This document shows, in pieces, positions 3,003 through 24,358 of a stretch of 56,560 nt of DNA. A program made the translations under genes and the position numbers. The notes beneath the pieces were generated by a model. That model had not been told where the DNA came from. It saw only the letters and a list, made by a program, of their open reading frames with translations, and made no database searches. Each line of letters begins with the position of its first letter. Within the stretch, counting starts at the first letter, position 1. Location: assembly GCA_902571925.1 (NCBI GenBank), contig CACGDW010000004.1, positions 1 through 56,560 of the forward strand, written 5' to 3'. Origin of the DNA: an uncultured Pelagibacteraceae bacterium. Lineage in GTDB: Bacteria > Pseudomonadota > Alphaproteobacteria > Pelagibacterales > Pelagibacteraceae.

Positions 3003-6000
3003 TTATTGATTTACTTGAGTTTCAGAGGCTTCAATTTTTTCTTGCTCAGATAAAAATTTATTGTCATCTTCAAGAGCTTTTTTGTTCCATTTGTTCTTAA
3101 TATTTCCAGTACCAGCTGGCACTAATCTTCCAACTATAACATTTTCTTTTAGGCCATTTAGTGGGTCAACTTTACCTTTTATAGCTGCATCTGTAAGAAC
3201 TCTTGTTGTTTCTTGGAAGGAAGCGGCTGAAATAAATGACTCTGTTTGAAGAGAAGCTTTTGTTATACCCATCAAAACTCTTTCTCCCTTAGCTTCTAAT
3301 TTACCTTCTGATTTTAATTTTTCGTTTGTATTTTCAAATTTAATTTTATCTACTATTTCACCAGGCAAATAAGTTGAATCTCCTGAATTTTTAACTTCCA
3401 CTTTCTTTAACATTTGTCTTAAAATTGTTTCTATATGTTTATCATTAATTATGACTCCTTGAAGCCTGTAAACTTCTTGAACTTGATTAACAAAGTATTC
3501 TGTTAGTTCTTTAATTCCCAAAATTCTGAGAATATCGTGAGGTAAAGGTTGGCCATCTAATAAATATTCACCTTTTTTAATTCTTTCTCCTTGATTAAAA
3601 TTTATATGTTTCCCTTTTGGAATTAGATAATTAGAAGGTTCTGACCCATCTTCAGGAGCTATAGAGACTCTTTGTTTACCTCTCACTTCTTTTCCAAAAA
3701 TAACTTGACCATCATTTTCAGCAATTATCGCACTATCTTTCGCTTTTCTTGCTTCAAATAATTCTGCCACTCTTGGTAAGCCTCCAGTAATATCTTTTGT
3801 TTTTGTTGTTTCTTTAGGAAGTCTCGCAATAACATCTCCGGCAGAAACCTTTTGTCCATCTTTTACTGAAAGGATTGAATCTGGTACTAAATAATATCTT
3901 GCTTCATTATCGTCAGCCTTTTTAATAACATTTCCTTTATCATCTCTTAATGTTATTCGTGGTTTTAGATCAGTACTTTTTGATTGAGATCTCCAATCAA
4001 TTACAGATTTAGAAGAAATTCCTGTTGCATCATCAGTAGTTTCTTGAATTGAAACTCCATCAATAAGATCAACAAAACTTGCAATACCACTTTTTTCTGC
4101 AATAACTGGTGTTGTGTAAGGATCCCACTCACAAATTTTTGTATTTGCTTTAACTTTGTCACCATTTTTAAAGAATACTTTAGAGCCGTATGCAACTTTA
4201 TAAATTGCAATTTGTACTCCATTCTCATCCTCAATAGAAAGTTGAGTATTTCTTCCCATCACAATTAAATTCTTTTTTGAGTCTTCTAAAATATTAGAAT
4301 TTATTATTTTTAAAATTCCATTATTTTTAGTTACTATTTGTGAATCTTGTTTTACTGAAGCTGTACCACCAACGTGAAATGTTCTCATAGTTAATTGTGT
4401 TCCTGGTTCCCCAATAGATTGTGCAGAAATCATTCCAATTGCTTCTCCAACATGAACCATTTTTCCTCTAGATAAATCTCTTCCATAAGAGGTTGCACAA
4501 ACACCTTCTTTGCTTCCACATGTCATTACTGAATAAACTTTAATTGATTTTACTCCAGCAGCATCAATTAAATCACATCCTGCTTCATCAATCATAGCAG
4601 ATTTTTTAATGACAATATCTCCTGTTATAGGATTTTTTACATCATCAAATGTAATTCTTCCCAAAGCTCTTTCAGATAAACTTACAACAACATTTCCACC
4701 TTCTAAAATTTCCGAAAGTTCTATAAATCCTGGATTTTTACAATCACACTCTTTTTTTGTGATCGTTAGATCCTGTGCCACATCACAGAGTCTTCTTGTT
4801 AAATACCCTGAACTTGCTGTCTTAAGAGCAGTATCAGCCAATCCTTTTCTAGCTCCGTGAGTAGAATTAAAATATTCAAGAGCAGTCAAACCCTCTTTAA
4901 AATTTGAAGTTATTGGACTTTCAATAATTTCTCCAGATGGTTTAGCTATCAGGCCTCTCATACCGGCTAATTGTTTCATTTGTGCTGCTGAACCTCTTGC
5001 ACCACTGTCTGCCATCATAAAAACCGAGTTAATCTTCAATCCTTCAGAAGTTTTTTCTGTAGCTGAAATTCCTTTCATCATCTCACCAGCTACTTTGTCT
5101 GTACATTTTGACCATGCATCAACAACCTTATTATATTTTTCACCTCTTGTAATTAAACCTTCAGAATATTGAGTTTCATAATCTGCAATTAATTTTTTTG
5201 TATCATCTATTAATTGAGTTTTGCTCTCTGGAATAACAAGATCATCTTTACCAAATGAAATACCAGCTTTAAAAGCGTGTTTGAAACCTAGGTCTTTTAA
5301 CTTGTCACAAAAAATAACTGTAGTCTTTTGTCCACAGAATCTAAATACAATATCAATTACCTCAGAAACAACTTTTTTAGGTAATAATCTATCGACTAAA
5401 GAGAACTTTATATCTTTGTTTTTTGGTAACAAGTTTGCTAATAAAAATCTTCCCGCTGTTGATGTATATTTTTCAAATTTTTTATTACCTTTTTCATCTA
5501 CTGTTTCAAATCTTGATATTATTGTACTATGAACCTTTATTTGTCCAGATGATAAAGCAAATTCAATTTGATCTGCATCAGTGAAATAACCCACAGATTT
5601 ATCTGTCATTGGTTCTTGAGATAAATAATAAATACCTAAAATCATGTCCTGACTTGGAACAATAATAGGCTTACCGTTGGATGGGGATAAAATATTATTA
5701 GTTGATAGCATTAAAATTCTAGCTTCTAATTGGGCTTCTAAACTTAAAGGAACATGAACAGCCATTTGGTCACCATCAAAATCCGCATTAAATGCTGCAC
5801 ATGTTAAAGGATGTAATTCAATAGCATCACCTTCAATAAGTTTTGGTTCAAATGCTTGAACACCAAGTCTATGGAGTGTAGGTGCTCTATTTAGTAATAC
5901 AGGATGTTCTCTTACTATAAGTTCAAGTGCATCCCAAACAGCATTGGTTTCTTTTTCAACAATTTTTTTTGCTTGTTTAATAGTTGATGCCATACCTAGT

Positions 6001-7172
6001 TTATTAAGTCTTGCATATAAAAAAGGTTTAAACAATTCTAGAGCCATTTTTTTAGGCAAGCCGCACTCATGTAATTTTAAATCTGGTCCTACAACAATTA
6101 CTGATCGACCAGAATAATCTACCCTTTTTCCTAATAAATTTTGTCTGAATCTTCCTTGTTTACCTTTCAACATTTCAGCTAATGATTTAAGAGGTCTTTT
6201 ACCTGTTCCAGTAATTACTCTTCCACGTCTACCATTATCAAAAAGGGCATCAACAGACTCTTGTAACATTCGCTTTTCATTTCTAACAATTATATCTGGA
6301 GCTTTAAGATCCATTAATCTTTTTAGACGATTATTTCTATTTATAACTCTTCTATAAAGATCATTTAAATCAGATGTAGCAAACCGTCCTCCATCTAGTG
6401 GAACTAAAGGTCTTAATTCAGGTGGAATTACTGGTACAACTGTCATTATCATCCATTCAGGTTTCTGACCAGTTTCAATAAATGATTCAATTAATTTTAA
6501 TCTTTTAATTGCTCTTTCTTCATTCACTTTAGATTTTGTTTCTTTAATATAGCTTACAAGATTTTTTCTTTCTAAATCTAAATCTAGATTTTTTAACATT
6601 TCTAAAACAGCTTCAGCACCTATACCCGCAGTAAAAGCCTCCTCACCAAATTCATCTTGATATTTAGCTAACTCTTCCTCGTTTAAAAGTTGATTTTTCT
6701 TTAAACCTGTAAGTCCTGGTTCAACAACTATAAAGTTTTCAAAGTATAAAACTCTTTCAACTTCTTTAAGCTTCATATCCACAGCTAAAGCTATTCTACT
6801 AGGTAAAGATTTTAAAAACCAAATATGAGCAACGGGTGTTGCAAGATTAATATGGCCCATTCGTTCTCTTCGAACATTAGATTTTGTTACCTCAACACCA
6901 CATTTCTCACAGATAATACCTCTAAATTTCATTCGTTTATATTTTCCACATAAACATTCATAATCTTTGATAGGACCAAATATTCTTGCACAAAATAGTC
7001 CATCTTTTTCAGGTCTAAAAGTTCTGTAATTGATAGTTTCTGGTTTTTTAATCTCTCCGTAAGTCCATGACTTAATTTTTTCAGGACTTGCTAAAGATAT
7101 CTTAATGCTATTAAAATTTTGTGCTTCAGAAATTTCTGAATTTTTAAACAAATCTGTTAAGTTTTTTTTCAT
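3003..7172 (-). CDS. rpoC: DNA-directed RNA polymerase subunit beta'
   Basis: This is the catalytic clamp subunit of RNA polymerase. The 1389-residue length is normal for an alphaproteobacterium. The N-terminal zinc site is visible as CLC (C73, C75) and CEKC (C88, C91). The active-site loop NADFDGDQM, whose aspartates bind the catalytic magnesium, lies near residue 461. A second cysteine cluster (CDCKNPGF and CGSKEGVC) forms the usual second zinc site. The bridge helix and trigger loop region is recognisable around [13 protein letters not shown]. The gene begins 2 bp after the rpoB stop and is the last gene of the rplKAJL-rpoBC run before the str operon. Confidence 0.99.
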
Positions 7173-7174
7173 AT

Positions 7175-10100
7175 TTAGTTTAATTCCACATTTAAAGCTA
7201 AAGATTTTATTTCTTTAACTAAAACGTTAAATGATTCTGGTATACCTGACTCAAAGTTTTCTTCACCTTTAACAATTGTCTCATAAACTTTAACTCTTCC
7301 AGCAACATCGTCAGATTTTACAGTTAATATTTCTTGTAAAGTATATGAGGCACCATATGCTTCTAAAGCCCAAACTTCCATTTCTCCAAAACGTTGACCT
7401 CCTAATTGTGCTTTACCACCTAACGGTTGTTGAGTAACTAGACTGTATGGACCTGTTGATCTAGCATGAATTTTATCCTCTACTAAATGATGGAGTTTCA
7501 GCATATATATTATTCCAACTGTGACAGGTCTATCAAATTTCTCTCCTGTTCTTCCATCCCATAAATAAGTTTGTCCTGATTTTGGTAATTTTGCTAAATC
7601 TAACATCTCTGTTACATTTTTTTCTTTAGCACCGTCAAAAACAGGAGTTGATATCGCTATACCATCTTGTAGATTTTCACATAAATCTTCAAATTCATTC
7701 TTACTTAACTTGTCAATTTTTTCTTTGAAAGTTTCCTCGCCGTAAACAGATTTTAAAAAACTAGATATTTTTTGTGTCTTTTCAATTTGTTTGTTATTTT
7801 CATTGACTAATCTTCTTACTTCTTGACCAAATTCTTTACAAGCCCATCCTAAATGAGTTTCTAGGATTTGCCCAACGTTCATACGACTTGGTACACCTAA
7901 TGGATTTAAAACTATATCAACAGGTCTACCATCTTCCCTGTAAGGCATATCTTCGACAGGAACAATTTTACTAACAACTCCTTTATTACCGTGTCTTCCT
8001 GACATTTTATCTCCTGGTCTCAATCTTCTTTTTATTGCAACAAAAACTTTCACCATTTTCATTACACTTGGTAATAAATCATCACCACTTCTTATTTTTA
8101 ATACTTTATCTTCAAATCTTTCTGTAATATCAAGTTTTGCTTTATTATATTGTTCTTTAAGCTGTAACAATGTCGAAGAATTTTTCTCATTATCAACAAC
8201 AATCTTAAAAATTTCATTAATACTTAATTGATTAATAGCTTCAAAATTAAGTTTACTTCCTGCTTCAATATCTTTAATTTTCTTTGATATATTTATGCCA
8301 GATAATATTTGTGATGCTCTTTGTTTAATACTTCTTTCTAGAATTTCTTCTTCAACTATTTTGTCTTGTTGAACCTGATCAATTTCTGCTCTTTCTATCG
8401 TTATAGATCTTTCATCTTTTTCTATTCCATGACGATTGAAAACTCTAACATCAACAACAGTACCACTGCTTCCCCTCGACATTCTCAATGATGTATCAGT
8501 AACATCTATGGCTTTTTCTCCAAATATTGATCTTAAAAGTTTTTCCTCAGGTCCTGATGCCGAGTCACCTTTAGGAGTAACTTTTCCAACTAATATATCT
8601 CCAGCATTCACTTCAGCTCCTATATAAACTACACCTGATTCATCCAAATTTTTTAAAGCCTCTTCATTTACATTTGGAATATCTCTTGTAATTTCTTCTT
8701 CTCCTAACTTAGTATCTCTAGCCATTATTTCATATTCAACAATATGAACTGATGTAAAAACGTCATCTGTTACACATCTTTCAGAAATTAAAATTGAGTC
8801 TTCAAAATTATAACCTTGCCATGGCATAAACGCTACAGTAACATTTTTTCCTAGAGCTAGTTCACCAAGTTTTGTTGAGGGACCATCAGCTATAATGTCA
8901 CCAGACTTAACCTTATCACCTACTCTCACTAGTGGCTTTTGATTGATACATGTGTTCTGATTTGATCTTTTAAACTTTTGTAAATTGTAAATATCTACAC
9001 CTGATTTAGAAAAATCTGTCTCTTCAGTTGCTTTAATAACAATTCTTTTTCCATCTATTTTATCAACAACTCCATCTCTTTTAGCAACTATTGTTACACC
9101 AGAATCTAGTGCTACATCACTTTCAATACCTGTTCCAACCAAAGGAGACTCCGGTTTCAATAATGGAACAGCCTGTCTCATCATATTTGAACCCATTAAA
9201 GCTCTGTTGGCATCATCATTTTCTAAGAAAGGAATTAATGATGCGGCTACTGAAACTAGTTGTTTAGGAGATACATCAATATAATCTATAGTCTCAGGTT
9301 TTGACAATAAAAAATTTAAATTTTGTCTACAAGAAACTAATTCTTCAATTATTTTTCCGTCTTTATTAATTTTAGTGTTTGCTTGAGCAATAGTAAATTT
9401 TGTTTCATCCATTGCTGATAGATACTCTACTTCGTCTTGAACTATTCCACTTTTAACTCTTTTGTATGGACTTTCTATAAAACCATACTTATTTATCTTG
9501 GCATAAGTAGATAAACTATTTATTAATCCAATATTTGGACCTTCTGGGGTTTCTATCGGACAAATTCTACCATAGTGAGTTGGATGCACATCCCGGACTT
9601 CAAAACCTGCTCTCTCTCTTGTTAATCCACCTGGACCAAGAGCTGAAACTCTTCTTTTATGAGTAATTTCTGATAATGGATTTGTTTGATCCATAAATTG
9701 AGATAATTGAGAACTAGCAAAAAAATCTTTAAGAGAAATAGTAAGTGGTTTTGCATTAATTAAATCTTGTGGCATTGCTGACTCTACGTCTAATGTAGTC
9801 ATTTTTTCTTTTATAGCTCTTTCCATTCTATAAACTCCAATACGAGCTTGATTTTCAACTAATTCTCCTACTGACCTTACTCGTCTATTTCCTAAATGAT
9901 CGATATCATCTACTTCATCTTTTCCATCTCTAAGATCTAACATCTTATGAATTATTGCAATTACGTCATCATTTCTCAAAATTGTTATTTTGTCAGAACA
10001 CTCAAGGTTTAATCTAGAGTTCATTTTAACTCTACCTACATCTGAAAGATCATATCTATCTGAACTAAAAAAAAGGTTATTAAAAATCTGGGCTGCGATT

Positions 10101-17841: not shown

Positions 17842-18906
17842 TCATAACTTTTTGAAAAAAAATTCAATTTGTTGTGAGGTAAAATTAATTATTTGATTTT
17901 TATTTTTAAAAAAATGCTGATACCATTCTGACGTAAGTTTAATTGAATCATCTATATTTAATTTAGACTTCCACTTTATATCTTTCATTATTAATTTACT
18001 GGATAATCTAAGAAATTTCTTTTCACTAAATTTTATATTTTTAAATTTATATTTTATCTTTATATACGGAACGCTTTCTATAAATTTTTGAATAAAATGT
18101 TTTACTTTCAGGTCTTTATTAGATTTTGGTCCAATATTATAAATATGAGAAGTGTTTGAAATCTTCTTTCCTTTAACTAAAAAGAGTTTTAAAATTCCCT
18201 CTATTACATCTAAAATATGCTGCCATGGACGTGTAGCATTGGGATTTCTTAGATATATATTTTTTTTCTTTAAATTAGATAAAAATAAGTCTGGTATTAA
18301 TCTGGTTTTTTCCCAATCTCCTCCACCTATAATATTCCCTGCCCTAACAAGAAAAATATTTTTATTTTTTTTAAAAAAAGATAATTTATAACTATTAGAA
18401 ATTAAATCTTGAGCAGATTTACTTGCACTATATGGGTCTTTGCCACCTAAAGGAGAATTTTCATTTAAACTTTTTTTATCTAGGTTTTTATAAACTTTGT
18501 CTGATGTAAAAATCATTATATTTTTTAAACTCTTTATTTTTTTTGCAATTTCAAAAAGTTTAACAGTACCCATCACATTTGTTTCATAGTTGGTTTTTGT
18601 TTTTATATATGACTCGGAAACTAATGGTTGGGACGCTAGATGGATTAGTATATCTGGTTTAAATTTTATTATAGTATTTTGATAAGTTTCTATATTTCTA
18701 ATATCAGCAGTAATTGTTTTAATTTTTCTTTTGTAATCAGAAAAATTAGACAAGTATCTATTATCTTTCTTTCTTAATGAATATCCTAAAATTTTTGAAC
18801 CTAATAAGGATAAGGTTAAAGATAAATAAGAACCTACAAAACCAGAGTTTCCAGTAATTAAGATTTTTTTTCCCTTAAAATATTTTTTATAAGATTTCCA
18901 ATTCAT
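17842..18906 (-). CDS. rfbG: CDP-glucose 4,6-dehydratase
   Basis: This NAD-dependent dehydratase converts CDP-glucose to CDP-4-keto-6-deoxyglucose, the branch point for CDP-linked deoxysugars of cell-surface glycans. The 354-residue length fits RfbG. The Rossmann glycine motif ITGNSGFVGSYL is near residue 18, and the catalytic tyrosine-lysine pair is in PYSASKSAQD. RAGNIIGGGDW and TRPWQHILDVIEG are typical for the family. The identity is reinforced by the rfbF homologue 2 kb away and the sugar methyltransferase directly upstream (7 bp). The neighbourhood is very lysine- and asparagine-rich, as is common for variable surface-sugar islands. Confidence 0.85.
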   Translation of the reverse strand: MNWKSYKKYFKGKKILITGNSGFVGSYLSLTLSLLGSKILGYSLRKKDNRYLSNFSDYKRKIKTITADIRNIETYQNTIIKFKPDILIHLASQPLVSESYIKTKTNYETNVMGTVKLFEIAKKIKSLKNIMIFTSDKVYKNLDKKSLNENSPLGGKDPYSASKSAQDLISNSYKLSFFKKNKNIFLVRAGNIIGGGDWEKTRLIPDLFLSNLKKKNIYLRNPNATRPWQHILDVIEGILKLFLVKGKKISNTSHIYNIGPKSNKDLKVKHFIQKFIESVPYIKIKYKFKNIKFSEKKFLRLSSKLIMKDIKWKSKLNIDDSIKLTSEWYQHFFKNKNQIINFTSQQIEFFFKKL

Positions 18907-22481: not shown

Positions 22482-22567
22482 TGGTGCCCTCGGCCAGACT
22501 CGAACTGGCACTCCGCAAGCGGCAAGGATTTTAAGTCCTTTGTGTCTACCAATTTCACCACGAGGGC
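22482..22567 (-). tRNA. trnL: tRNA-Leu (anticodon TAA), integration target
   Basis: This is an 86-nt class II tRNA with encoded CCA. Acceptor strands GCCCTCG and CGAGGGC pair. The D arm is followed by the anticodon loop CTTAAAA, which carries TAA. The variable arm is long, and the T arm is GCCAGTTCGAGTCTGGC. Its 5' half, from the anticodon loop to the first base, and the sequence upstream are repeated 1,576 bp away, which marks this gene as an integration site. The copy here is complete and looks functional. Confidence 0.97.
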
Positions 22568-22628
22568 ATTAATGAATTTCATGAGTGTTTATGCTAATAT
22601 TTATAATTGAACAAGATGAATAAGTAAA
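22528..22628 (-). repeat. Proximal 101-bp direct repeat (att-like)
   Basis: These 101 bp match 24104-24204 with one mismatch (G at 22587, A at 24163). Positions 22528-22567 are the 5' half of tRNA-Leu, starting in the anticodon loop; the rest is the upstream flank. Allowing a 2-nt gap, similarity continues through a T-rich tract to about 22641. The boundary inside the anticodon loop is typical of tyrosine-recombinase target sites in tRNA genes. Confidence 0.93.
22600..22628 (-). promoter_or_regulatory. Predicted tRNA-Leu promoter (proximal copy)
   Basis: On the minus strand TTTACT (22628-22623) is followed after 17 bp by TATAAA (22605-22600), which would start transcription about 25-30 nt before the tRNA. 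The 101-bp repeat ends exactly at the first base of this -35 hexamer, so the distal repeat carries an identical promoter (24204-24176) facing the element's genes. Confidence 0.4.
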
Positions 22629-22638
22629 TTTTTTTTAT

Positions 22639-22669
22639 TTTATCTCTCTGTTTCCGAGTTTGTTCCGAG
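22639..22669. repeat. Inner 31-bp direct repeat, proximal copy
   Basis: These 31 bp are identical to 23948-23978. They contain two TTCCGAG heptamers (22652-22658 and 22663-22669) spaced by 11 bp. The two copies bracket the four cargo genes. Spaced heptamers next to an att-like site could be recombinase-binding arms, or the 31-bp units could be recombination sites of their own. Confidence 0.9.
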
Positions 22670-22714: not shown

Positions 22715-22897
22715 CTAATTCTGAATAAACTCAGGTATTACATAATTTTCTTTTTCTATTTCTTCTCTTACTTCCTTAGAATATCTATTTTTATAACAAT
22801 CATTACAAAGATATATAGCTTCTAAAGTACAGCTTACTTGGATTAATATTTCTTTATTTTCCCCACAATCATCACAGCTATATCTATTTTTTTTCAT
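22715..22897 (-). CDS. Small zinc-ribbon-like protein, unknown function
   Basis: This 60-residue protein has two CxxC pairs, C8-C11 and C31-C34, and an extra C23, which suggests a small zinc-binding fold. I do not recognise the family. Its start overlaps the stop of the upstream 167-residue gene by 4 nt (ATGA). Its first ten residues (MKKNRYSCDD) closely resemble those of that neighbour (MKKNKYSFDD), with 26 of the first 30 bases identical. It is the last gene of the mini-element operon. A regulator or accessory nucleic-acid-binding role is possible but unproven. Confidence 0.6.
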   Translation of the reverse strand: MKKNRYSCDDCGENKEILIQVSCTLEAIYLCNDCYKNRYSKEVREEIEKENYVIPEFIQN

Positions 22898-23397
22898 CTA
22901 TATATTTTGGATAATTTTTCGTGCTCTTCTTTAATGAATTTTAAAGCTAAATCTTTATTTTTAACTTTTTTAATACAATAACATACGGCATAACCTGTAG
23001 AACCTTGATAGTACATTATTATATAAATGGATTTATTAATTTTTGAACTAATTATGTGAAAAAAATAGAAATCAATTCCTAATTCCTCCTCAAAAGTGAA
23101 GGAGTAATCTTTTTCAAGTTTAAAATTATTATGAACGTATTTTAATAAATTTCCACTTTCAAGTGCCCCTTCTATAAAATCACCACTATTTTCAACAACA
23201 TCTTCCTCAAGTTTTTTATAACTTATTTTTTTAGTAGTACTCGATTTAAATAAATCTCTATATATATCCTGAGGGTTTTTTTGGATAATAGGAGGATATG
23301 TAATTTTGTTTTTACATTGTTTATCTAAATATTTAATAAATTTACTTAAATCAAAATTTTCAACCAAGTCATCAAAGCTGTATTTATTTTTTTTCAT
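22894..23397 (-). CDS. Hypothetical protein of the mini-element
   Basis: This 167-residue acidic/lysine-rich protein has no signal peptide or membrane segment and no recognised domain. The middle region contains an EEELGIDFYFFHIISSKIN stretch, and the C-terminal part (SIYIIMYYQGSTGYAVCYC) looks like beta strands of a globular domain. It starts 8 bp after the upstream 77-residue membrane-protein gene and overlaps the zinc-ribbon gene by 4 nt, so the genes are presumably translated together. It is the largest cargo gene. No toxin, antitoxin, nuclease or phage-defence motif was recognised. Confidence 0.6.
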   Translation of the reverse strand: MKKNKYSFDDLVENFDLSKFIKYLDKQCKNKITYPPIIQKNPQDIYRDLFKSSTTKKISYKKLEEDVVENSGDFIEGALESGNLLKYVHNNFKLEKDYSFTFEEELGIDFYFFHIISSKINKSIYIIMYYQGSTGYAVCYCIKKVKNKDLALKFIKEEHEKLSKIYR

Positions 23398-23405
23398 TTT
23401 ATAAT

Positions 23406-23639
23406 TTAATCAGGATAAGAAATGCACTTTTGATTGCCTCTCATATCAATTGAACTGCATTCATCATGACTGACTTCAGAAGTAAGATGATAAAGTCCAC
23501 CACAAATATAAACAATTATTAACCAACCTAAAACTTTATTATCTAGCTTTTTTCCCTCATTATCAGCTGTTTTGGAGTTTCTATTCCAAAAAAAATACAA
23601 AACATAAAGTATTATAAGATAAATTGTTATCCCAAACAT
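23406..23639 (-). CDS. Small membrane protein of the mini-element
   Basis: The 77-residue product has two predicted transmembrane helices, about residues 2-18 and 37-53. The short loop between them is charged, and the tail contains two cysteines (ECSSIDMRGNQKC). The family is not recognised. Its ATG overlaps the stop of the upstream lipoprotein-like gene in a TAATG junction, so the two are probably coupled in expression and may work together at the membrane. Confidence 0.55.
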   Translation of the reverse strand: MFGITIYLIILYVLYFFWNRNSKTADNEGKKLDNKVLGWLIIVYICGGLYHLTSEVSHDECSSIDMRGNQKCISYPD

Positions 23640-23935
23640 TAATTTCCAAGACCAATCAATTTACCTAAAAAAACAAAAATATTAACCAAATTAAACAAAA
23701 CAATTAAAATCAGTATTATAGATACAATCCAAAGAAATGATGAAATCTTTTTATTTTTGATTTGTAAAGCTTTATCTTGCAACCAAATAAAAGGCCCAAG
23801 TATTATAGCAACAATTATAATTGCTATAAAACCAATAAATGCTCCTAACGTACTGCTTTCATGCTCTGGCGATGCGGCACAACTTGAGAGTAATAAAGAT
23901 AAAACTAATAAAAATACAATTCTTTTCATAAACAT
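23639..23935 (-). CDS. Lipoprotein-like membrane protein of the mini-element
   Basis: This is the first gene of the cargo operon. The 98-residue product starts with a signal-like segment ending in a lipobox (LLSSC, cysteine near residue 19), followed by two long hydrophobic stretches (about residues 31-51 and 68-92). The second methionine (23929) gives a more conventional start, MKRIVFLLVLSLLL. A lipoprotein signal joined to two membrane helices is unusual. Function is unknown. The upstream 169 bp contain the 31-bp repeat, and beyond it lies the truncated tRNA-Leu copy whose promoter faces this gene. Confidence 0.55.
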   Translation of the reverse strand: MFMKRIVFLLVLSLLLSSCAASPEHESSTLGAFIGFIAIIIVAIILGPFIWLQDKALQIKNKKISSFLWIVSIILILIVLFNLVNIFVFLGKLIGLGN

Positions 23936-23947
23936 AACTATACAATA

Positions 23948-23978
23948 TTTATCTCTCTGTTTCCGAGTTTGTTCCGAG
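23948..23978. repeat. Inner 31-bp direct repeat, distal copy
   Basis: This is identical to 22639-22669, including the two TTCCGAG heptamers spaced by 11 bp. It lies 13-43 bp upstream of the first cargo gene and 125 bp inside the distal 101-bp repeat. With its partner it brackets the four genes exactly. Confidence 0.9.
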
Positions 23979-24039
23979 AATCTAAAAATTAATTGTTAAG
24001 ATTTTCCAATAAAAATAATCAAATGATTTCAAAAATTAT

Positions 24040-24081
24040 GGGATTATAAGGGATTAAGACAATTAGAGACTATTAGAGACT
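24040..24081. repeat. 10-bp-phased short direct repeats
   Basis: GGGATTA occurs at 24040 and 24050. Immediately after, the decamer ATTAGAGACT is tandemly repeated at 24062-24071 and 24072-24081. Both pairs are spaced by 10 bp, about one helical turn, and lie just inside the distal repeat. This phasing suits a protein binding one face of the DNA, such as a recombinase or excisionase, but chance is not excluded. Confidence 0.5.
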
Positions 24082-24103
24082 ATGAAATTCCTCAACTCAA
24101 ACT

Positions 24104-24143
24104 ATTTTAAGTCCTTTGTGTCTACCAATTTCACCACGAGGGC
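24104..24143 (-). pseudogene. Truncated tRNA-Leu (5' half only)
   Basis: These 40 bases are identical to the 5' half of tRNA-Leu(TAA), from the first base of the acceptor stem (24143) into the anticodon loop (24104). No 3' half follows; the sequence continues into the mini-element. It cannot make a functional tRNA. It is the displaced or carried tRNA fragment that defines the distal end of the insertion. Confidence 0.92.
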
Positions 24144-24204
24144 ATTAATGAATTTCATGAGTATTTATGCTAATATTTATAATTGAACAAGATGAATAAG
24201 TAAA
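24104..24204 (-). repeat. Distal 101-bp direct repeat (att-like)
   Basis: This matches 22528-22628 with one mismatch. It holds the tRNA-Leu 5' half, its upstream flank and the predicted tRNA promoter (-35 at 24204-24199, -10 at 24181-24176). Read on the minus strand, that promoter points into the four-gene operon at 23935 and below. Confidence 0.93.
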
Positions 24205-24358
24205 AATTTTTTTTATTTTTATTCCATTTAAAGTAAAGAAATTTAGCTTCAAAATTAATAATATAAGTCCAAAAAAAATCAAAAATAGGTTTAATTAAAA
24301 ACAATACGATATATTTCCATATTAAGGACCTTTTAAATAATTTTAAAAATTTAATCAT
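24170..24358 (-). CDS. Doubtful small hydrophobic ORF
   Basis: This 62-codon frame encodes a hydrophobic, aromatic- and lysine-rich peptide starting MIKFLKLFKRSLIWKYIVLF. It ends inside the 101-bp repeat, 26 bp before the truncated tRNA. There is no ribosome-binding site, and in DNA this AT-rich such frames arise by chance. It overlaps the predicted promoter of the tRNA fragment. It could be a small membrane protein, but I would not rely on it. Confidence 0.25.
   Translation of the reverse strand: MIKFLKLFKRSLIWKYIVLFLIKPIFDFFWTYIINFEAKFLYFKWNKNKKNFYLFILFNYKY

Follow-up and report, generated by a model that had tools for sequence, protein, structure and literature searches.

The window analyzed here, a stretch of 56,560 nucleotides, is contig C4 of a SAR11 genome of 803,825 bases (73.6% complete) and holds an element of 1,576 bp inside the anticodon loop of a tRNA-Leu(UAA) gene. 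All element features described below are on the minus strand. The intact resident tRNA-Leu(UAA), at 22482–22567, is recognized by ARAGORN, by the Rfam tRNA model, and through the repeat; its 5′ half appears to be element-donated and its 3′ half native. The element is delimited by a direct repeat of 114 nt and 96% identity (22528–22641 and 24104–24217) that ends in the anticodon loop of tRNA-Leu(TAA) and exceeds chance in the window. The copy at 22528–22641, a tRNA promoter plus 5′ half, forms the right end of the element and would be the donated one. The distal copy, with its tRNA part at 24105–24143, would be the host's original promoter and 5′ half, on the basis of the repeat and of neighbor-gene distances at other loci. 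The crossover region of the anticodon loop lies at 24105–24111 in the distal copy and has its counterpart at 22529–22535 in the resident tRNA.

Two hexamers in the distal copy, TTTACT (24204–24199) and TATAAA (24181–24176), are 17 nt apart, identical in both repeat copies, and oriented toward the cargo, at the positions given in the initial annotation for a predicted tRNA-Leu promoter (24204–24176). The repeat had also been described as running from the anticodon loop exactly to the -35 hexamer; the loop border holds, whereas a short A/T run is also shared past TTTACT. A consensus promoter scan of the window, in which 17 promoter-like sites compare with an expected 19.7 and the tRNA hexamers do not appear, was set aside as evidence either way, as it yields no more matches than shuffled sequence. 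Conservation across loci is more informative: in 159 resident copies, the two hexamers show 4.0% and 1.7% mismatches versus 11.6% and 9.8% for the bases between and after them. Because the hexamers are better kept than their surroundings, a tRNA promoter at this site is credible.

Between the two tRNA halves lie two further sets of repeats, for which we use the terms arm site and iteron by analogy. Three phased AGTC-type repeats (AGTC, AGTC, TGTC; 10-nt spacing) at 24058–24081 read as integrase-arm-site-like. An exact 31-nt repeat, like the AGTC-type repeats absent from the initial annotation, comprises an iteron pair plus AGAGAGATAAA and occurs at the left end (23948–23978) and at the right end (22639–22669), where the pairing of tags between ends marks it as element-specific.

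The distal promoter is aimed, as initially proposed, at four short minus-strand ORFs behind the half. The first (23639–23935) is lipoprotein-like with a score below the Pfam cut-off, and given the spacing from an upstream box discussed below, it probably starts at 23929 rather than 23935. It is followed by a hydrophobic protein of 77 aa (23406–23639) without an above-cut-off family match, a 167-aa protein (22894–23397) without a match in the family searches, and a 60-aa zinc-ribbon-like protein (22715–22897; Pfam zf-4CXXC_R1, 2.6e-05). No terminator-like hairpin was found in the window between the half and the cargo. Across 399 genomes, no complete copy of this cargo occurs in any other genome, and the three strongest partial matches have 73–88% identity over 185–500 nt; of five partial-cargo loci inspected (L247–L251), L249 and L251 lie near CTCGGA-type iterons. 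Flanking direct repeats at the tRNA crossover and a reconstituted intact tRNA, both present in the window, are the marks of a tRNA-targeted integrative element. The integrase gene that such elements of the tyrosine-recombinase type carry is missing from the window element, and family searches of its cargo ORFs returned neither an integrase nor a clear phage gene.

A recurrent insertion site in SAR11

The tRNA with its upstream region, used as a query against 151 genomes of the genus, has matches in 118, many with extra 5′-half copies. From the genus genomes 95 regions were taken, and 80 loci were added from relatives of the gene adjoining the tRNA, which we take to be NAD-kinase-like (80 of 375 relatives, all in Pelagibacteraceae, Pelagibacterales, or Pelagibacter). 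After 12 duplicates were dropped, 171 loci left 159 distinct ones, all with an intact tRNA and including the window. These contain 115 secondary matches, every one on the tRNA strand. Of the 113 that lie upstream, 97 end at the anticodon loop and 16 fall short of it; the other two are 3′-half copies on the opposite side of the tRNA, and these 18 were left out of the 97. Copies of the 3′ half (query 133–188, 100%) in L117 and L194 lie 0.7–1.2 kb from the tRNA, on its 3′ side, and, as read, would belong to elements of opposite polarity at the same gene.

The 97 loop-ending 5′ halves are spread over 77 of the 159 loci. Six border a conserved upstream gene pair and are omitted from the counts for 91 elements, and nine are omitted from the conservation profile. 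With the six gene-pair halves excluded, a half is present in 66 of the 128 loci that extend 3 kb or more upstream (one in 49, two in 16, three in one), a proportion drawn from related genomes, many with short contigs; 17 loci carry two or three elements. Comparison thus establishes the common border and the hotspot. Element length has a median of ~2.4 kb and a middle half of 1.6–3.3 kb, the window element measuring 1.6 kb. Within the order, 29 of 197 genomes contain the exact half-plus-arms pattern; they fall in two of ten genera, both in the window's family. The definition is strict and excludes the window, in which the third repeat reads TGTC.

The arms and iterons recur with the half. Behind the loop, 23 nt are followed by three AGTC-type repeats at 10-nt steps and at the same offset in 73 of 91 elements, as against two of 5000 random positions for the AGTC triplet; the remaining 18 elements are without arms. 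Past the arms, most elements have a pair of 11-nt direct repeats, the iterons, plus AGAGAGATAA. The iteron sequence varies by element (e.g., CTCGGAA, CTCGTACA, ACTAGAAA, ACCAGTAC, and ACTGGAGC), and left and right iterons are mostly alike within an element, with a mean of 17.2 of 20 versus 13.2 for foreign pairs and 13.85 as the highest of 2000 permutations. A score of at least 18 of 20 is reached by 58 of 91 own pairs and 334 of 8190 foreign pairs; the other 33 own pairs include 20 below 16. Because iteron types recur, only 39 of the 91 elements are without a foreign right end that scores higher. An element without cargo, made of a half, arms, and a single iteron pair, is found in L058 at oriented position 18086, ~230 nt upstream of the tRNA. 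One pair acting for both ends is what gain or loss of cargo between the 31-nt repeats would be expected to leave.

The first ORF lies on the tRNA strand behind 82 of the 97 halves, on the opposite strand behind 14, and is absent behind one, so that the check on other elements at this tRNA called for by the initial annotation comes out in favor of a shared orientation. Six of the 14 opposite cases are the halves bordering the conserved gene pair; without them, the counts are 82, 8, and 1 of 91. By family, 63 first-gene families are always forward and 7 always reverse (70 families; two-sided binomial ~2e-12, relatedness ignored). The whole cargo comprises 205 families in 280 proteins, with 186 families forward only, 18 reverse only, and one mixed. 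Gaps between consecutive forward genes are ≤50 nt in 140 of 163 cases.

Family searches covered 123 of the 280 cargo proteins, one per family and each of at least 150 aa. Among the Pfam matches listed (25 of 138 families) are type I specificity subunits (four proteins), DEAD helicases (three), Mrr-type and type III restriction enzymes, HNH nucleases, and trypsin-like peptidases (two each), as well as single TRAP-transporter, aminotransferase, carbamoyltransferase, and other enzyme matches. Among the PADLOC matches listed (25 of 222), type I specificity subunits predominate; a mads component and PDC-S57 also appear. Among the matches listed, the cargo across elements includes restriction-modification specificity subunits, methylases, and transporters, together with many unknown genes.

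SAR11 bacteria rank among the most abundant bacteria, and gene gain that is poorly explained makes their streamlined genomes differ. One tRNA gene that carries such elements in 66 of the 128 loci where 3 kb or more can be seen provides a concrete route for this gain. The cassettes also allow element-specific control and the capture of a tRNA promoter to be put to the test.

Origin of the two promoter copies

The polarity of insertion follows from a conserved gene upstream of the hotspot, presumably gpgP-like. At six loci (L101, L102, L105, L188, L146, and L115), this gene starts 81–100 nt from the intact tRNA with nothing between. In the 21 loci that show this gene together with a half on the side facing the tRNA, the distance to the half is again 81–100 nt in nine, 39 and 42 nt in two, and greater in ten. 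Since the gene is equally far from the half and from the intact tRNA, the distal half and its promoter are host-native in at least nine loci. In the window, where the gene is 803 nt from the distal half, the latter is likewise taken to be the host's, with later changes in between. The initial annotation had the element bring a promoter to the cargo and the resident tRNA keep its own; the neighbor-gene distances reverse these roles, such that the resident tRNA would be driven by the element-donated copy. In this polarity, the element must, by the predicted layout, supply a promoter. Pelagiphages that carry the same half, and the satellites L213, L214, L236, and L233 described below, have a different sequence upstream of it.

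A separate observation concerns the conserved upstream pair itself. In L101, L102, L105, L188, L035, and L066, the 406-aa member of the pair is followed, 5 nt on, by a tRNA half, which in the first four of these loci is 2.2 kb from the tRNA, as if the pair had once arrived, or been bracketed, as a reverse cassette.

Integrase-bearing relatives and known systems

Nearly all of the cassettes are devoid of an integrase: among the 280 cargo proteins of the 91 elements, the only relative of the satellite integrases is the first ORF of L180. PF00589 matches occur in 110 of the 151 genus genomes, mostly as one chromosomal gene each; none is inside the hotspot (places compared by eye), the nearest being ~7 kb away on the other side in G039, and in G000 the sole match is on contig C12, not C4. 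The single genomic tyrosine recombinase is commonly ~325 or 307–311 aa long, and in ten genomes where both it and the tRNA are on one contig, roughly 86–100 kb separate them, judged by eye. This chromosomal recombinase (~306–326 aa, the sole PF00589 match in many genomes) was rejected as a cassette gene on account of its location elsewhere; it may be a trans-acting enzyme.

Relatives that do carry an integrase exist, as comparison with viral contigs shows. Strict patterns built from the window iterons and from two arm-repeat forms gave no hits in viral contigs; the looser half + AGTC repeat pattern found three (L213–L215). Circular relatives occur among IMG/VR contigs. L213, of 7,799 bp with a 99-nt terminal repeat, contains the half, AGTC arms, an integrase, and a primase; from the terminal repeats, L213 is a circle of 7.7 kb and L233 one of 8.9 kb. 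The L213 integrase, the first gene behind the half, has 545 aa and matches phrog_1 (4.3e-20) and, below the cut-off, PF00589 (4.9e-05). Its primase-like protein of 781 aa matches phrog_21866 (8.9e-27) and DUF5906, and a RusA-like protein of 113 aa is also encoded.

An integrase is the first gene behind the half in L213, L214, L236, L233, L239, L238, L241, and L180. Relatives of the L213 integrase occur in seven of 399 genomes, one as a weak 65-residue match and one in two pieces. L239, L241, and L238 are among the loci recovered in this way; in L240, L242, and the remaining loci with such relatives, the half was not found in the stretch examined. The satellite iterons sit within the coding region of the integrase N-terminus, and several of their types also occur in cassettes: ACTAGAAAC in L239, ACCAGTACC in L180, ACCAGCAC in L238, and CTAGGATC in L214. 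None of the satellites found has the window leader family (TAGTTTGAG). On the strength of the shared sites, the cassettes are most likely moved in trans by integrase-bearing satellites. A further satellite-like family uses the same half in L230 and L232, where the 515-aa first gene is related to the L180 ORF (1e-69) and the repeats differ, with GTTGCCCA or GTTACCCA pairs at both ends.

Phage satellites (P4-like, PICI, PICMI) and hitcher elements are one class for comparison. The relatives L213 and L233 resemble them as small circles with an integrase, and L213 combines, as phage satellites do, an integrase with a replication gene, its primase. The window cassette has neither integrase nor primase, and no packaging gene or helper phage was identified; the single hint of packaging by a helper is that circular relatives turn up among IMG/VR contigs. 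Integron gene cassettes are likewise cargo units that lack a recombinase, sometimes stand in tandem, mostly point in one direction, and depend on an integrase encoded elsewhere. The SAR11 cassettes would work similarly; they differ in targeting a tRNA, and no integron integrase was found.

The pelagiphages HTVC105P, HTVC109P, and uvMED S35-C6 carry the same tRNA-Leu(UAA) 5′ half beside their integrase, at the expected attP place. They differ as full phages with other flanking repeats and no matching tRNA promoter, and the HTVC105P integrase is disfavored as a helper because those repeats differ. The half is located between the integrase and the phage RNA polymerase gene (4670–4726 in L210, 4110–4149 in L211, and 5001–5057 in L212, for the three phages in that order) and faces the latter; were one of these phages to integrate, the tRNA promoter of the host would point at its RNA polymerase gene. 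The available text of PMC6811365 describes pelagiphages that integrate at another tRNA, tRNA-Leu(TAG).

Tycheposons, in the accessible portion of PMC10872708, have a tyrosine recombinase and span 4–200 kb. They resemble the SAR11 elements as tRNA-sited cargo islands in streamlined marine bacteria; by that description, almost all of the SAR11 elements differ in being without a tyrosine recombinase, their middle half covers 1.6–3.3 kb, and the window element, at 1.6 kb, falls outside the class of tRNA-bordered 4–200 kb islands with a tyrosine recombinase.

Two precedents bear on the promoters. The int gene of ICEKp1 is transcribed from a tRNA-Asn promoter according to the text available for PMC13023037, and integration of ICEKp1-like elements similarly sets an element gene behind a host tRNA promoter. 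There, as far as that text goes, the whole tRNA precedes int and its 3′ end is the target; in the window cassette just the 5′ half is left, the tRNA acquires a different promoter copy, and the position of int is taken by cargo. For restored tRNAs, expression from an element promoter is said to occur "seldom" in bacteria in the available part of PMC8371274, which makes a resident tRNA on an element promoter noteworthy. Elements with pTN3-like integrases share this use of an element-supplied promoter for the restored tRNA; the SAR11 cassettes differ from those described there in being integrase-less and recurrent at one bacterial hotspot. The Charybdis elements of PMC12324425, for which the available text names an archaeal host, are a different element. 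A search of the literature by titles and abstract openings found no description of these SAR11 cassettes; an earlier one may exist.

Transcription of the cargo

A -10-like TATAGT at 23937–23942, 11 nt past the GAT of the iteron and ahead of the ATG at 23929, constitutes a putative promoter of the cargo's own, which the initial annotation does not mention. The iteron-anchored promoter comparison covers 67 elements in which both iteron and GAT were recognized; the first gene is forward in 58 of these, with starts taken from a simple ORF finder. Allowing at most one mismatch, TATAAT stands at +10 past the left-iteron GAT in 18 of 51 first-gene families and at +5 in 16. In 1000 shuffles, the +10 box has a mean of 2.5 and a highest count of 11, and the best at any position in any shuffle is 12. 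At right-end iterons, the +10 box occurs in none of 76, and the tRNA TATAAA is found at +39 in 60 of the 76. A start-like codon follows at +21 to +24 in 17 of the 23 families with a box at +9 to +11. A start codon placed where transcription would begin implies a leaderless mRNA, with which the missing ribosome-binding-like motif agrees: no such motif stands before any of the 36 first starts located between +19 and +26, whereas later cargo genes have it in 33 of 152 cases and ORFs of the window in 9 of 43. The proximal box has no recognizable -35 (3.30 of 6 matches versus 2.97 in shuffles), and that place is occupied by the iterons, which suggests a regulated promoter. The iteron-phased box may thus be the cargo's own, leaderless promoter, with the window operon starting near 23930.

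These observations change the role proposed initially for the tRNA promoter. That this promoter drives the cargo is favored by its geometry, as it faces the cargo with no terminator hairpin found, and is opposed by the -10-like box at the first ORF. The claim that the cargo thereby gains a strong, growth-linked promoter is not supported in that form, as 27 of 58 forward iteron cassettes (about half), the window's included, have their own phased -10-like box at the expected place.

The reading that best accommodates the evidence jointly, with a probability of about 0.7, is an integrase-less mobile cassette at tRNA-Leu(UAA) with two promoters for its cargo. Site-specific recombination at the anticodon loop would have placed the 1,576-bp cassette in the SAR11 tRNA, with 23936–24204 as the left end. 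The cassette would consist of an attachment region (tRNA promoter plus 5′ half, AGTC-type arms, and matched iterons) and a cargo operon, the integrase presumably coming in trans from satellites that keep the same attachment region before their integrase gene. After insertion, the host's promoter and 5′ half of the tRNA would point into the cargo, and the tRNA would have received a replacement copy. In many cassettes, including the window's, the main promoter would be the proximal, leaderless, iteron-associated one at the first start codon. A second input would come from the host tRNA promoter, whose transcripts would run on without termination; in the window this input is probably secondary.

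A different weighting makes the host tRNA promoter the main one, with a cargo mRNA that begins with the tRNA 5′ half. In addition to the geometry, the direction bias of 63 versus 7 families, and the ICEKp1 precedent (PMC13023037, in its available text), it can draw on the hexamers, both of which match at at least 5 of 6 positions in 73 of 88 distal copies (138 of 159 residents). This conservation was rejected as proof of function, because the adjoining tRNA half, useless in the distal position, is kept almost as well, with 31 mismatches in 3426 positions (0 in 6201 for residents). The scarcely decayed half indicates that conservation of the distal promoter reflects youth rather than selection, and most inserts look young. 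Further support comes from seven cassettes (L155, L116, L098, L195, L114, L128, and the second half of L080) in which an ORF starts -1 to 42 nt behind the loop; their first genes are mutually unrelated, they lack an iteron leader, and they have a host-like promoter, such that no candidate other than the tRNA promoter is visible. In L173 and L062, an ORF is also close behind the half, without host-like promoter sequence. For a minority of cassettes, then, the tRNA promoter function is perhaps correct. As a general account it is unlikely, given the iteron-phased box near the start codon in about half of the iteron cassettes and 36 first starts without a ribosome-binding-like motif, which suit a leaderless start and not a 240-nt leader. 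A common direction would moreover be expected anyway, since the satellite integrase occupies that place in that direction. Two other leads were dropped: RNA structure in the leader, which folds worse than shuffles (z +2.74), and a minus-strand Rfam MIR529 match that is under the gathering score and reflects chance.

That same satellite arrangement underlies an improbable alternative, in which the direction bias is a matter of ancestry only, the cargo having replaced a satellite integrase, and neither the tRNA promoter nor read-through matters. The eight loci with an integrase first behind the half fit this, and in some cassettes the leader may retain, across the iterons, coding sequence for a short integrase-like beginning. 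Against it, direction is largely kept over 205 families and 280 proteins, which suggests selection or directional loading. A decayed prophage or an ordinary segmental duplication would account for a window element without an integrase or clear phage gene but is very improbable in view of the same anticodon-loop border in 97 copies with unrelated contents, the 17 loci with two or three elements, the mostly matched iterons, and the circular relatives.

The cassette reading with two promoters can be extended, speculatively, to an integron-like system that uses a tRNA as its site. Rare satellites acting in trans would load cargo units without an integrase behind the captured tRNA promoter, for the most part in a single orientation, and such units are present at about half of the sites sampled. 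The iteron pair would serve both as an address that determines which satellite can move a given cassette and as an operator that switches the leaderless cargo promoter when the satellite protein is present, and the 31-nt repeats would form a socket for cargo exchange, for which the cargo-less L058 may be compared. This extension is doubtful as a whole.

Two smaller observations concern the cargo proteins. In L051 (oriented 3867–9450), a single element contains eleven forward ORFs, nine of them of 157–191 aa and one with a prepilin-type N-terminal motif. The first cargo genes of L035, L157, L096, L110, L206, L205, and L080 open nearly alike, with ATGAAAAAACTTTTAGGGAT, which looks like a common signal-peptide start.
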